Of a stretch of 64,000 nt of DNA, positions 52,557 to 58,252 are shown in pieces. Numbering within the stretch: position 1 is the first letter of the stretch; each line of letters starts with the position of its first letter. Below the pieces are notes generated by a model. The model saw only the letters and a program-made list of their open reading frames with translations. It was not told the origin of the DNA and made no database searches. The position numbers were made by a program, and so were the translations under genes. This DNA is from Gimesia maris (lineage in GTDB: Bacteria > Planctomycetota > Planctomycetia > Planctomycetales > Planctomycetaceae), in assembly GCF_008298035.1 (NCBI RefSeq), contig NZ_CP042910.1, forward strand, positions 6,696,001 to 6,760,000. Direction: 5' to 3'.

Positions 52557-53459
52557 TTACCGTGTCATTCCATGGCTGCCGGGATTGACGTCAATGAAAT
52601 AGGCTGACTCGGTCCAGTGCTTAAACCAGACATGCAGCTGCCCAGCCAGTTTCTCTGAATCCATGAGCCCTGCGTCTGCGAATTCGTAGATCGCCTCACC
52701 GATTTTCAGTCCCTGCTGCAGACGGGAAAGCAGGAAAAACTCTGCCTCTGAAATCGCAGCACGACGCACAATATAATTCCGGCGTGTGATCGCCAGGTAT
52801 GTGTTAGTGGGATCCGGAATAGCAGGACTTTCTCCACGTTTTGTACTGGAAATATATTCCTGCACAGGGAACTGAAACTTCATCAGCCGAAAACAGGGGG
52901 CCATCTGCAAGGACAGCTCGGGCCACAATTCTGGAGGGATCGTATTCAGAGTCTCCGCTGTCAGCAGTTCCTGCTTTTCGATTCCGGGCCCATCAAATAC
53001 TTCACTATAAACGCGTTCCAGTGTCGCCAGTTCGATCAGAAAATCAGTCCACTCGGGTGTGCCTGCATTCGATTCCGGTTCTGGTCGACTCTCCTGTAAA
53101 AACTGAGGAAACCGGGCCCCCAGTTCTCCGAGTGTATAACTGGCAGGATGATATTTTTGCAGATATTCCATACTGAACGCACCAAAGGCTGCTGTTCCCA
53201 TCGCTGTCACCAGAGCTGCATATTCTTCACTGAGACACTCCAGCAGCCGTGCATAATAAGCATTGGCATAAATGCCGATGCGTTCATAACTCGTCTGCTG
53301 ACTGGATCGGGTAATCACCGATTCCAGTTGATCGTCTGTCAGCGGGATCTCACGTTGTGCAGCTTCCGAGGCAATCCCTGATTCGACTCCACCAGGCGCG
53401 CTGATTACAGTCTGCATCCAGCGTTGTATCTGATCCAGTTGACGTTCCTGCCGGTTCAT
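52557..53459 (-). CDS. bufC: DUF2063 partner protein of the MNIO system (BufC/HvfC-like)
   Basis: The product is 300 residues. The N-terminal region ([16 protein letters not shown], then [22 protein letters not shown] and [23 protein letters not shown]) is the DUF2063 putative DNA-binding domain. The C-terminal half is a helical/strand domain typical of BufC/HvfC. In characterised bufferin systems this partner binds the precursor and delivers it to the DUF692 oxidase; DNA binding is not thought to be its role. Its ATG overlaps the bufB stop by four bases, so the pair is translationally coupled. Confidence 0.9.
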
Positions 53460-54385
53460 TCGACTTCTGCCACAATAAACGATGCTGGATGAGGAATGGC
53501 CCGAGAATCAACGTGGACAGACTCTATCTCCGTTTTCACTTCTTTCTGCATTGGGAGATTTTCATCCATGTACTGCCTGGCTTTTAATACCTCCTGATGT
53601 ACGACTGGGAACGGGGGGATCTCTGCGTCCCATTCCAGCAGCGTCGCCACTCCCCCGGTACGCTGATGCAGTAATCGAAACAGATTCCAGACCGGATCAA
53701 TCACATGCCCGTCGTGGGTATCAATCAGATGTGTTCCACAATTGGTGTGTCCGGCAAGATGACACTGCACAACCCGCTCAGCAGGTATTGCTTCCACATA
53801 GGCGACCGGATCAAAATCATGGTTCACACTGGAAACATAGACGTTATTGACATCCAGCAGTAAGCCACAGTCTGCTTCTTCCGCCATGCGACAGACGAAC
53901 TCAGATTCACTCATTGTGGAATCCTGAAATTCGAGATAGCTGCTGGGGTTCTCCAGAACCAGCGGTCTTTCGAGGATGTCCTGTACAATACCAATCCGTT
54001 CGACCAGGTGCGAAAGTGTCGCTTCATTATAAGGGATCGGAAGCAGATCATGTGAATTGCGTCCGGCAACACCAGTCCAGCAGACATGGTCGGAAATCCA
54101 GCGTGCGTTCATCCCTTCTGCCAGCCGTTTCAGTTTTTCCAGGTACTCGCGGTTCAGCGGATCCGTACTGCCTATCGACAGTGACACGCCATGCATGACG
54201 ATCGGATAGTGTTCTGCAATCTGTTCCAGCACGGCTCGAGGACGGCCGTTTGAATCCATAAAGTTTTCGGAAATGATTTCGAACCAGTCTACTTCCGGCT
54301 GATGTTCCAGAATATGAGAGAAGTGAACCGTCCGCAGACCAACCCCCAGCCCCAGATTCTCATGTCCCAGTCGTGGTGCCCGCAT
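53456..54385 (-). CDS. bufB: DUF692 multinuclear non-heme iron oxidase (BufB/MbnB-like)
   Basis: The product is 309 residues, a full DUF692 TIM barrel. Expected iron ligands are all present: H65 in [11 protein letters not shown]99-H100 in ISDHVCW, E145 in LENPSSYL, D178 and N180 in [11 protein letters not shown]209 in CHLAGH, D222 and H224 in IDTHDGH, and E251 in LLEWD. MNIO enzymes use two or three iron ions and oxygen to modify Cys in peptides, forming oxazolone/thioamide (MbnB) or thiooxazole (bufferin) groups. It is paired with bufC and follows a Cys-rich precursor, so the bufferin type fits best. Confidence 0.93.
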
Positions 54386-54439
54386 ACTTCTCTACTTTCG
54401 TGCCTTGAGATGAATTAGAACCTGAATGAAGGACATCAC

Positions 54440-54480
54440 AAAAAGCGGGCTCCTGATCAATCATTTTGAAAAGGAGCCCG
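54440..54480 (-). terminator. intrinsic terminator between precursor and enzyme genes
   Basis: A perfect nine-base GC-rich stem (54446-54454 with 54472-54480) is followed on the minus strand by CTTTTTG. It lies in the 120-base gap between the precursor stop (54506) and the bufB start (54385). It should end most transcripts after the precursor and let some read through to bufB and bufC, a common way to make much more precursor than enzyme. Confidence 0.8.
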
Positions 54481-54505
54481 ACTTCCCTGTCACAAACATG
54501 ACTCA

Positions 54506-55036
54506 TTATTTTTTCTTGGGTTCTGGTGCAGGACCGACTTTCTTACCGGCTTTTTCCATGGCTTTTTCGAATTCAGCACGTGCCAGCTTCCAGGCATCCG
54601 GCATCAGAGGTATGTGGCAGCCTCCTTTACCTTTACACGAATTCATACCAGGATTGCTGCCACAGCCGCCTTGCCCTTTACATTCGTTTTCCCCCGAGCA
54701 ACTGTGTTCTGCAACGGAAGCACAAGCCCCCAGACCGGCACACTCATTTTCTACCCCGGCATGTTTGCCTTTGCAGGTGTTCAAACCTCGGCAGACATGC
54801 GGTTCTTTCATCAGCAGGCTGACATCTTTGTCACTCGTTCCGGCTTCCCCTTCAGCAGCATGATCATGATCATCGTGTCCCTGGGTAGTACTACCGGCTT
54901 CTGTATCCGCAGGCGGCGTTGCAGGTGCAGGTGGGGTAGCAGGCTGACAGCCCGTCATGGAACCTGCCACCACTCCTCCAAAAGCGGCAAAAGTCAGTCG
55001 ATTAAAATCGCGTCGATTCATTTCTGGACGTTTCAT
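54506..55036 (-). CDS. bufferin-type Cys-rich RiPP precursor (BufA2-like) with Tat/lipoprotein signal
   Basis: The product is 176 residues. GAGGAAATCC precedes ATG 55036. The leader has a Tat-like motif (NRRDFNRLTF) and a lipobox MTGC (C30). A Pro/Thr linker and a His/Asp patch (GHDDHDHA, 53-60) follow. The core has nine Cys, all in C-x5-C spacing: C82/C88, C99/C105, C113/C119/C125 and C134/C140, with repeats such as CKGKGGC. This resembles BufA2-type precursors, whose Cys are turned by an MNIO into metal-binding groups. The last 35 residues are Lys/Glu/Pro-rich. The adjacent bufB and bufC genes support the call. It would be a periplasmic, perhaps membrane-anchored, metallophore. Confidence 0.88.
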   Translation of the reverse strand: MKRPEMNRRDFNRLTFAAFGGVVAGSMTGCQPATPPAPATPPADTEAGSTTQGHDDHDHAAEGEAGTSDKDVSLLMKEPHVCRGLNTCKGKHAGVENECAGLGACASVAEHSCSGENECKGQGGCGSNPGMNSCKGKGGCHIPLMPDAWKLARAEFEKAMEKAGKKVGPAPEPKKK

Positions 55037-55118: not shown

Positions 55119-55134
55119 TGTGAGTTATCTCACA
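55119..55134. promoter_or_regulatory. CRP/FNR-type operator upstream of the bufferin precursor gene
   Basis: TGTGAGTTATCTCACA is a perfect 6-4-6 dyad and fits the CRP-family pattern TGTGA-N6-TCACA at every defined base. It lies 83 bases upstream of the precursor ATG (55036). A near copy lies at 58060-58075 (13 of 16 bases identical). Confidence 0.6.
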
Positions 55135-56052: not shown

Positions 56053-56865
56053 ATGCGTGCCGGGCACTTTATTATATTTTCACTGAGTTTAATTACCCTT
56101 CCCTTATTCTCTGATTCCGTATCTGCAGAAGAGATCAAGTGGCAAACCAATCTGAAACAGGCCGCACAACAGGCCCGTGCGGATGACAAGGCCATGTTGA
56201 TTCAGATCGGAGCTTCATGGTGTGGCTTCTGCCACAAAATGGACAGGGAAACTTATAAAGACCCCAAAGTCATCAAACACGTTAACTCCTGTTTTGTCCC
56301 CATTCGTGTGGATGCGGATGAAAACTCAGAGTTGGTCGAAGCGATTGGCGTTGCCGGATTGCCGACCACAGTTATCATCACTCCAGAACTGAAAATTGTA
56401 AAAAAGATTTCCGGCTATGTGGCAGCACCCGAAATGCAGGGGCATCTCAGCAAAATCTGTCTGGTGAATCACGAACAGGCAGCGCCTGCCCGTAAACAGC
56501 AACCCATCCAGAAAATGAGCCAGAAACAGGTCGCACCTGAATTCGCCTTTAAGAGCATCTGCCTGGTAAGTATGCTGGACGATCAGGAACTGACTGAAGG
56601 AAAACCAGAATTTACATCGAATTATCGAGGCCAGACGGTCTGCTTCTCATCAAAAGAGCACAAGCAGAAATTTGATGCAGAACCAGAAAGCTACTGGCCC
56701 GCCTTCGAAGGCAAGTGTCGCGTCTCTCAACTGGAACGCAACCAGTCTGTAGAAGGAGATCCTTACGCAGGGGGCGTGTATCGCGAGCGACTGGTATTCT
56801 TCACGTCAGCATCTGAACGTGACAAGTTTACTGCGAACCCGGGTTACTACCTGATCAGGAAGTAA
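56053..56865 (+). CDS. periplasmic thioredoxin-fold protein with two YHS-like domains
   Basis: The product is 270 residues. AAGGAAG precedes ATG 56053. A signal peptide ends near SVSAEE. The thioredoxin domain (about 25-135) has the active site ASWCGFCHKMD and a cis-Pro GLPTTVII. A linker leads to two YHS-like repeats (about 160-215 and 216-270): SICLVS, then GKPEFTSNYRGQTVCF, and KCRVSQ, then GGVYRERLVFFTS. In both, the second Cys of the usual C-x2-C is Ser. It may reduce or carry disulfides on metal-handling proteins; the neighbouring bufferin operon and YHS gene suggest metal stress. Confidence 0.82.
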   Translation: MRAGHFIIFSLSLITLPLFSDSVSAEEIKWQTNLKQAAQQARADDKAMLIQIGASWCGFCHKMDRETYKDPKVIKHVNSCFVPIRVDADENSELVEAIGVAGLPTTVIITPELKIVKKISGYVAAPEMQGHLSKICLVNHEQAAPARKQQPIQKMSQKQVAPEFAFKSICLVSMLDDQELTEGKPEFTSNYRGQTVCFSSKEHKQKFDAEPESYWPAFEGKCRVSQLERNQSVEGDPYAGGVYRERLVFFTSASERDKFTANPGYYLIRK

Positions 56866-57008: not shown

Positions 57009-57905
57009 TTACTGTGCAGTGTCAATGGACTGGGGTTTCAGCCAGACAAATTTTCCTTTGTTAGCGATCTGCTTTCCTTTTACACTGACTTTCAAACTCT
57101 GAAATCGTGATTTATATAGATCCGGGTGTGAGGCATGCGCGCCTTCAATCACATAAATTTTGCCGTCGTTGCTTTTAACAGCCAAACCTAATTCATCTGG
57201 ATCCTGCTTGGGATGTACTCCATACTCACAGGCAGCACAGCCAGTGGTGCCGCTGATAGAAACCAGTTCAGATGCAGCTGGCGCTTCAGTGGTAGATACC
57301 TTTTTTGCAGTTAAGCTGGCGACATACTTCGCTGAGTCTTTCTGGAATTTCTGCATCACGGCCTGACTGGGGAACTGATATCGGAGTCCCTGGTAGATCG
57401 CTGTAAATTCCGGTTTTCCAGGCACGTCTTTACCACCATCTACTTTACAGACGATGCATTTCCCATCGCAGGCCAGATCTACGTCTGCGTATTCTGCAGG
57501 TGATTTATCAAAGACCGCTTTGATACTTTCATTCGGAAACAGAAAGACACGTCCCTCATAAAAACTGATATGATCAATCTTGCCCGGGTTCCGCAAACCG
57601 TCATGATGAGCATAACAGACAGTGCAGTCTCCCTTTAATGCGGGAACATATTTTTCAGGTGCCGTTTGAAATTTCTGTTTGACTTCCTCTGAAGGGAACA
57701 GATAGGTCTGGCCATCATAGACAACAGAAAACTCCGGCTTCCCGGAAACTACTTTTTTGCCGCTTAACAGGCAGACCGCACAGTTTCCATCAAGGGCTAC
57801 GGGAGCCTCCTTTTTCTGACTGCTTTCTGCAGCATTCACAGCACCACTGACATAGACCATGGATAACAGTACCGCGGCTGTCATTACGTTTCGAAACAAA
57901 TTCAT
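57009..57905 (-). CDS. exported protein with three YHS-like repeats
   Basis: The product is 298 residues. AGGAG precedes ATG 57905. A signal peptide ends near AVNAAES. Three repeats follow, each beginning C-x2-C (CAVC, CTVC, CIVC) and carrying a GKPEF-x(3)-YDGQTYLFPS-like strand pair and a KFQ-x-AP-x-KY helix end, at about 28-80, 82-140 and 143-200. This is the YHS-domain pattern, linked to metal (often copper) binding. The last part has another Cys pair (GCAACEYG) and a small strand-rich domain (KIYVIEGAHASHPDLYKSRF). It is convergent with the thioredoxin gene that shares the same repeats. Confidence 0.82.
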   Translation of the reverse strand: MNLFRNVMTAAVLLSMVYVSGAVNAAESSQKKEAPVALDGNCAVCLLSGKKVVSGKPEFSVVYDGQTYLFPSEEVKQKFQTAPEKYVPALKGDCTVCYAHHDGLRNPGKIDHISFYEGRVFLFPNESIKAVFDKSPAEYADVDLACDGKCIVCKVDGGKDVPGKPEFTAIYQGLRYQFPSQAVMQKFQKDSAKYVASLTAKKVSTTEAPAASELVSISGTTGCAACEYGVHPKQDPDELGLAVKSNDGKIYVIEGAHASHPDLYKSRFQSLKVSVKGKQIANKGKFVWLKPQSIDTAQ

Positions 57906-58252
57906 CTGCATCTCCTGAAACATTCACTCTGTTTTCTACAATGGGAATCTGCGTTATGAACAACCAGTTTGACAACATCGAACAGATTCCCTGACACACA
58001 CTGATTCTTGACTCATGAATCAGAACAGCAACAGTATTGCTGCTGACATTGGTGTTATCTGTGGTGTATCTCACAGTCTCAAATTTTTTTTGAATTGATG
58101 TCAGCGGGCTGATCGCAAAAAGACATCAGAGAAAGCGGTATTGCATCAAATGGCCAAGTATTGATAATCAGGATCTCTCTCCCATTCATAGATACTCACA
58201 GACATTTCTCAAGTCCTCTCCAATTCTTTAGTTACAACAAACCAGGTGCCTT
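57906..58252. other. divergent intergenic region with a CRP/FNR-like site
   Basis: This 347-base gap separates the YHS gene from the zinc-ribbon protein gene. Apart from the dyad 58060-58075 I see no clear promoter, hairpin or frame in it. Confidence 0.45.
58060..58075. promoter_or_regulatory. CRP/FNR-type operator upstream of the YHS-repeat gene
   Basis: TGTGGTGTATCTCACA fits TGTGA-N6-TCACA in nine of ten defined bases and matches 55119-55134 in 13 of 16. It lies 155 bases before ATG 57905 and 178 bases before ATG 58253, so it could act on either gene. Confidence 0.5.

Follow-up and report, generated by a model that had tools for sequence, protein, structure and literature searches.

The window analysed here, a 64,000-nucleotide stretch of the Gimesia maris genome (contig NZ_CP042910.1, positions 6,696,001 to 6,760,000), contains an MNIO (DUF692) operon whose assignment to the bufferin type is well supported by sequence, and in which the precursor appears to carry a twin-arginine signal. 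This signal looks to have been kept, in place of the usual Sec signal, in the nearer planctomycete relatives. Its product is, with high probability, a bufferin-like peptide that undergoes chemical modification and binds metal. An earlier note, made from the sequence alone, had described three minus-strand genes, and the open reading frames (ORFs) for all three were confirmed as an operon. They encode a BufA-like precursor of 176 aa (54506..55036), a BufB-type MNIO of 309 aa (53456..54385) and a DUF2063 partner of 300 aa with an NGO1945_C-like C-terminus (PME-type 1; 52557..53459). The gene order is A-B-C, the gene for the PME-type 1 partner immediately following that for the MNIO, and the stop codon of the MNIO gene and the start codon of the partner gene share an ATGA (53456-53459). 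All coordinates are those of the window and refer to the minus strand unless a plus strand is given.

The enzyme matched the DUF692 profile PF05114 with 365.7 bits (E 1.5e-109) and exceeded the cut-off of the curated bufferin-maturase model (BufB equivalog, NF050167) with 359.8 bits against 310. Its best match among solved chains was 3BWW. The set of His, Asp, Glu and Asn residues that had been picked out, here treated as candidate ligands, was near-invariant in 98 MNIOs. Methanobactin was considered and rejected, as the MbnB model TIGR04159 gave 50.4 bits on the enzyme with a cut-off of 325. The expected DUF2063 partner was also recovered, with PF09836 matching at 54.3 bits (E 1.6e-14, cut-off 27.2), while PF22106 (NGO1945_C) stayed under its cut-off (23.5 bits, cut-off 27) as did the HvfC model NF050145 (48.9 bits, cut-off 142). 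PF09836 was over its cut-off in all 10 partners sampled from relatives, which were drawn from loci where the partner in the window had already found a relative.

In the precursor the leader MKRPEMNRRDFNRLTFAAFGGVVAGSMTGC is followed by a linker that contains HDDHDH, then by the nine-Cys core and finally by a tail. The core (C82 to C140, 54617..54793) includes CKG and CAG motifs, and its nine Cys (C82, C88, C99, C105, C113, C119, C125, C134 and C140) had been described as all C-x5-C spaced. This holds in that every one of them sits in at least one such spacing, the pairs being 82-88, 99-105, 113-119, 119-125 and 134-140. Conservation was counted over 79 distinct intact precursors with E below 1e-24 to the one in the window, a stop-interrupted copy (L045) being left out, and each core Cys was found in 78 or 79 of the 79. 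Four ORFs that lack the core pattern had also been dropped before precursors were counted. In L045, from a draft genome (G413), a TAA breaks the precursor gene between linker and core. The tail is conserved and includes a predicted C-terminal helix (residues 146-162, 54551..54601), modelled by AlphaFold2 as a block with pLDDT 68-85, in which W149 is invariant in an alignment of 57 precursors (57/57). The His/Asp patch before the core (HDDHDH, residues 54-59, 54860..54877), to which the earlier note had drawn attention, is present but lies in the variable linker and lacks conservation, with gaps at its columns in 64 to 72 of the 79 relatives. It was rejected as a required element, and a required metal site there is unlikely.

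Two export motifs are found in the leader, a twin-arginine motif NRRDFNRL at residues 7-14 (54995..55018) and a lipobox MTGC at residues 27-30 (54947..54958), with C30 as its Cys. R8 and R9 were present in all 79 relatives and F11 in 78, and the lipobox Cys was kept in 64, though the query used to gather this set includes the signal and may have biased the conservation seen in it. RR-x-F was nevertheless found in the leader at all 12 places where the main match starts at residue 59 or later, and at three of these (G399:C768, G408:C107 and G414:C6) a further match, distinct from the main one, came from the signal. In the 57-precursor alignment R8, R9 and F11 were invariant (57/57), while the lipobox Cys was neither invariant nor nearly so. 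The twin-arginine motif is better conserved than the lipobox. The RRDF of the precursor agrees with the Tat consensus, and the genome contains one TatC match. As a background, RR was found in two of 21 pattern-made Gimesia lipoproteins (332 ORFs, 464 kb), of which one does not look like a Tat signal. The gene picker behind this estimate was crude and missed the precursor in the window, which had probably lost its place to a longer frame on the opposite strand.

The distribution of the signal was examined on a tree of the 98 MNIOs, 86 from planctomycetes and 12 from Pseudomonadota, which came from a quick search and has 29 open forks and long outgroup branches. On this tree the Tat/Sec character needs three changes and the lipobox 10, or seven when counted inside the Tat rows. 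The rows comprised 66 labelled Tat, 17 labelled Sec and 15 that were uncounted, namely the 12 outgroup rows, two ambiguous loci (L072 and L023) and a fusion (L083). The automatically assigned Tat and lipobox labels were changed by hand for L017, L067, L069, L145, L022, L083, L072, L023, L062 and L065; L045 and L086 went without a label, loci with two precursors were labelled by the last precursor read, and L060, which has no start Met, was off the reference list. Sec thus accounts for 17 of the 83 labelled planctomycete rows, and Tat is therefore not universal in the phylum. Precursors labelled Tat had a less hydrophobic h-region (mean 1.64, n=85) than those labelled Sec (mean 2.02, n=18), a comparison made without L017, L067 and L062, where the automatic choice of segment was wrong. 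A less hydrophobic h-region has been described for Tat signals (PMC5539426). In the 12 Pseudomonadota plasmid loci, four precursors of the BufA2 type (L185-L188, over the cut-off) and six of the DUF2282 type recognised by eye (L190-L195) had Sec-looking signals and no RR; at the other two, L184 encodes a fusion protein whose start lies beyond the stretch and no precursor was recognised at L189.

Of 101 genomes drawn from the same family, 54 have a homologous precursor, which is why the operon cannot be put down to chance. The closest named relatives were from Gimesia and from metagenome-assembled genomes of Planctomycetaceae, with six near relatives recovered by a single-sequence contig search. 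A profile search of the G. maris genome gave a single PF05114 match, and the same profile was found in 110 of 392 genomes sampled across the phylum and in 63 of the 101 drawn for the precursor search. All 54 genomes with the precursor had an MNIO, versus 9 of the 47 others (Fisher 1.5e-19, with the kinship of the genomes uncorrected). A position rule placed a C-x5-C-rich ORF just upstream at 63 of 90 MNIO loci from the phylum-wide sample, with a few plainly chance frames among them. Among the 27 remaining loci, L070, L072 and L082 still have a precursor match, which the rule missed, and several others are cut by contig ends or hold MNIOs of low similarity.

Of the systems already described, Bufferin 2 (BufA2, Buf_6/12Cys, NF050166) is close, sharing the gene order, the BufB-type MNIO, the PME-type 1 partner and a Cys- and CKG-rich precursor with an export signal. 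The precursor in the window differs in its nine core Cys, as Buf2 has 6 or 12 conserved Cys (PMC12452194), and in its long variable linker, C-terminal helix tail and apparent twin-arginine signal. Bufferins are described there as Sec-exported, with about 16% of Buf2 predicted to be lipoproteins, and the same paper asks how premature Sec export is avoided; the terms 'Tat' and 'Planctomyc' are absent from its main text. The captophorins (fontiphorin, oxazolin, gonophorin and the bufferins), a class of copper peptides with 5-thiooxazoles, also combine an MNIO, a PME1 and a Cys-rich precursor (PMC13097082). Membership is judged by 5-thiooxazole on Cys, at -4 Da each and about 305 nm, and by copper binding, and for the precursor in the window this chemistry is predicted by analogy; the signal type also appears to differ. 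EGKCG repeats are absent from the 176-aa precursor, and oxazolin/Buf_EGKCG was rejected on this ground. The adjamnio-I group, with 8-21 Cys, no Sec signal and a PME-type 2 partner (PMC12452194), was considered as a family to which the precursor might belong and was set aside, though less firmly than a rejection, since the 10 sampled partners all match PF09836 over its cut-off; that sample was drawn from loci with a known partner relative, and a minority of loci show no DUF2063 match.

The earlier note had singled out the leader as unusual, and this stands in part. Lipidated MNIO peptides have already been made, as the DAG-RiPPs (PMC12636315), whose precursors share with ours a lipobox with the Cys after the h-region. 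They differ in that lipidation is predicted here and that our precursor has a twin-arginine signal and, at 176 aa, lies beyond the range of that study, which kept ORFs of 50-160 aa. In that paper 'Tat' and 'twin' gave no matches and the sole mention of Planctomycetota concerned ChrH homologues. Among the papers listed in our literature searches, which covered few subscription papers, none joined MNIO or bufferins to Tat. Per the literature searched, the twin-arginine signal appears to be the new part of the precursor.

The reading we prefer, with a probability of roughly 0.68, is that of a bufferin-like metallophore which acquires its modifications in the cytoplasm, leaves by the Tat route and, in Gimesia, is held by a lipid anchor. 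The precursor would be made in the cytoplasm, where the MNIO and the DUF2063/RRE-like partner would oxidise core Cys, most likely to 5-thiooxazoles, by analogy with the MNIO-PME1 class. The modified peptide would then leave through the Tat translocase rather than Sec, as the conserved signal suggests. Judging from the lipobox, the Gimesia peptide would be lipidated at C30 and anchored to the membrane in the periplasm, and relatives that have RR but lack the lipobox would release a soluble peptide. In the periplasm the modified Cys would bind copper or a similar soft metal.

Several observations weigh against parts of this reading. The precursor in the window reached only 23.7 bits with the BufA2 model NF050166 (E 4.2e-5, cut-off 60), over residues 97-123. 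The description of the operon as bufferin-type held for the BufB model, the PME-type 1 partner, the exported Cys-rich precursor and the A-B-C order, but not for the precursor profile, and with this weak match the precursor was not filed as BufA2. At E 0.01 or better, NF050166 matched 53 of the 57 aligned precursors, that of the window included (best 1.1e-16), and three (L020, L058 and L082) of five more distant planctomycete precursors tested passed, with L063 and L067 failing. The missed cut-off and the nine Cys rather than 6 or 12, taken together with these matches, suggest a precursor that is related to BufA2 but has diverged from it, and no separate invention. In addition, the generic Tat model TIGR01409 matched only six of the 57 precursors (E 0.01 or better), with that of the window not among them. 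Among the 66 loci that combine a close precursor with an MNIO, seven show no DUF2063 match in the stretch, even though six of these extend 1.4 to 2.9 kb past the MNIO. Neither a copper gene nor DoxX was found among the five neighbouring proteins scanned. Finally, in the AlphaFold2 model of the unmodified precursor the core is disordered (mean pLDDT 55.7) and the C-terminal helix has moderate confidence, which leaves export in a folded state unproven. Hydrophilic segments of 100-120 residues can pass through Tat even when unstructured (PMC6708511), and a disordered core therefore does not rule out this route. For the same reason Tat need not be a folding checkpoint, and we consider it improbable that it serves as one here, passing only modified, metal-loaded and hence folded peptide, so that the product would be a disposable lipid-anchored shuttle for copper export instead of a periplasmic copper catcher.

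The conserved RRDF could also have been kept as a leader read by the MNIO/DUF2063 complex, with export by Sec, or as a Sec lipoprotein, as in other bufferins. The signal peptide of Buf1 is part of the recognition sequence according to preliminary results mentioned in PMC12452194, and an A..G..AG-like h-region is common to precursors with and without RR. However, related MNIOs on the same tree serve precursors without RR (the 17 Sec-labelled rows), the RR is accompanied by the lower, Tat-typical hydrophobicity of the h-region, and the motif fits the Tat consensus, which together make this explanation unlikely. Somewhat better placed, though still doubtful, is that the operon and its chemistry are as proposed and the main task is thiol or oxidative stress or another metal (gold, mercury or zinc). 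The recurrence of thioredoxin/DsbH-type neighbours (see below) would fit such a task, as would the lack of a copper gene among the five neighbours scanned, and gold-induced operons and MerC fusions are discussed in PMC12452194. Against this, the characterised MNIO-PME1 products, which carry 5-thiooxazole, generally bind copper (PMC13097082).

The precursor might instead be an unmodified, metallothionein-like Cys-rich lipoprotein, the MNIO having some other substrate. At 19 precursor loci the stretch that was fetched, in several cases a short one, shows no MNIO, the genome having one elsewhere, and the precursor can therefore live apart from the enzyme. The presence of an MNIO in every precursor genome and the adjacency of the two genes in 9/9 Gimesia argue against this idea, which we regard as very improbable. 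No common metal theme was found in ten large or neighbouring genes beside such unlinked precursors. In three genomes of one genus (g287; L112, L115 and L119) the MNIO-less precursor genes adjoin a large DUF4175-like gene.

Cys-rich sequences of other builds were also seen upstream of MNIO genes. In the planctomycete locus L083, a larger protein, presumably ferritin-like to go by its motif, is encoded directly upstream of the MNIO and has a bufferin-like Cys core joined to its C-terminal part, and the same type of fusion is found directly upstream of the MNIO in the Pseudoalteromonas plasmid pNC201 (L184, 3-1427). In L078, L087 and L092, which share one supported branch of the MNIO tree, the precursor upstream of the MNIO consists of four repeats, set at intervals, around a C-x-G-x-N-x-CKGLGGCKV-like motif. 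Short exported-looking ORFs with simple Cys repeats (CPGKDG, CGGDKS and CGGxKG) lie just upstream of the MNIO in L054, L089 and L098 and are possibly further precursor types.

A divergent gene encoding a DsbH-like thioredoxin-YHS protein (56053..56865, plus strand) adjoins the operon in 9/9 Gimesia and is a possible accessory. Four other genera also have it next to the precursor (L043, L139, L140 and L144), in stretches where the other tested Gimesia neighbours were not found, and it is present at three of the 36 loci outside Gimesia that extend at least 2.5 kb upstream. Ten chosen genomes were searched whole; in five of them the best thioredoxin-YHS match adjoins the precursor, and in G467 and G216 a full-length relative lies elsewhere in the genome. 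DsbH-type proteins also flank L063, L067, L068 and L070. Next to the thioredoxin-YHS gene, a gene for a YHS-repeat protein (57009-57923, minus strand) is kept in 9/9 Gimesia. An amidase, an alpha/beta-hydrolase and a protein that is RecO-like by eye were considered as partners and rejected; all are syntenic in 9/9 Gimesia, and none was found beside the precursors of G373 and G266.

Upstream of the operon, an operator-like palindrome, TGTGAGATAACTCACA (55119..55134), lies 82 nt before the start codon of the precursor and is invariant in 9/9 Gimesia, the upstream regions of these genomes being strongly diverged outside this block. It fits the CRP/FNR-type consensus TGTGA-N6-TCACA. Among 68 precursors from other genera with at least 150 bp available upstream, in which the motif was sought within 350 bp, four had all 10 palindrome bases, 10 had nine of 10 and 54 had fewer; single-base shuffles score nine or more in 0.6%. 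The 14 palindrome-bearing precursors span 11 genera, and TGTGA ranked first of 1024 half-sites (14 sequences, the next having nine and the mean being 0.85). The strict form TGTGAG-N4-CTCACA was found at 11 places in 11 genomes (two of which, G307 and G459, were picked because the site was present), with at least one in eight genomes and two for the reversed control. Seven of the 11 sites are upstream of a precursor; G373, G439 and G409 have a precursor but no strict site, and both sites in G266 are elsewhere. A regulator of the operon probably uses the palindrome as its operator. The palindrome occurs at two places in the G. maris genome, and the second (L197) was discarded as a clue to a regulon, only one wholly enclosed ORF of at least 90 aa being found in a 3-kb stretch. 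Between the precursor and MNIO genes, a hairpin followed by a T-tract (54440..54480), resembling a terminator or attenuator, is present in 9/9 Gimesia; a single compensatory change of a base pair was seen, and it is the window that carries it. The hairpin was unlisted by a standard scan, probably because of its long loop, and it probably holds expression of the enzyme below that of the precursor.

The landscape study (PMC12452194) began by gathering precursors shorter than 200 residues for which a Sec signal was predicted, together with a group that had none. With this collection and the 160-aa limit of the DAG-RiPP study, the present branch could escape notice or be filed under the wrong group. 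A handle on the regulator of the operon is offered by the conserved palindrome. The twin-arginine signal, conserved across a whole branch, suggests that a post-translational route may be a natural answer to the problem of premature export, and the question becomes testable on one precursor with either signal.

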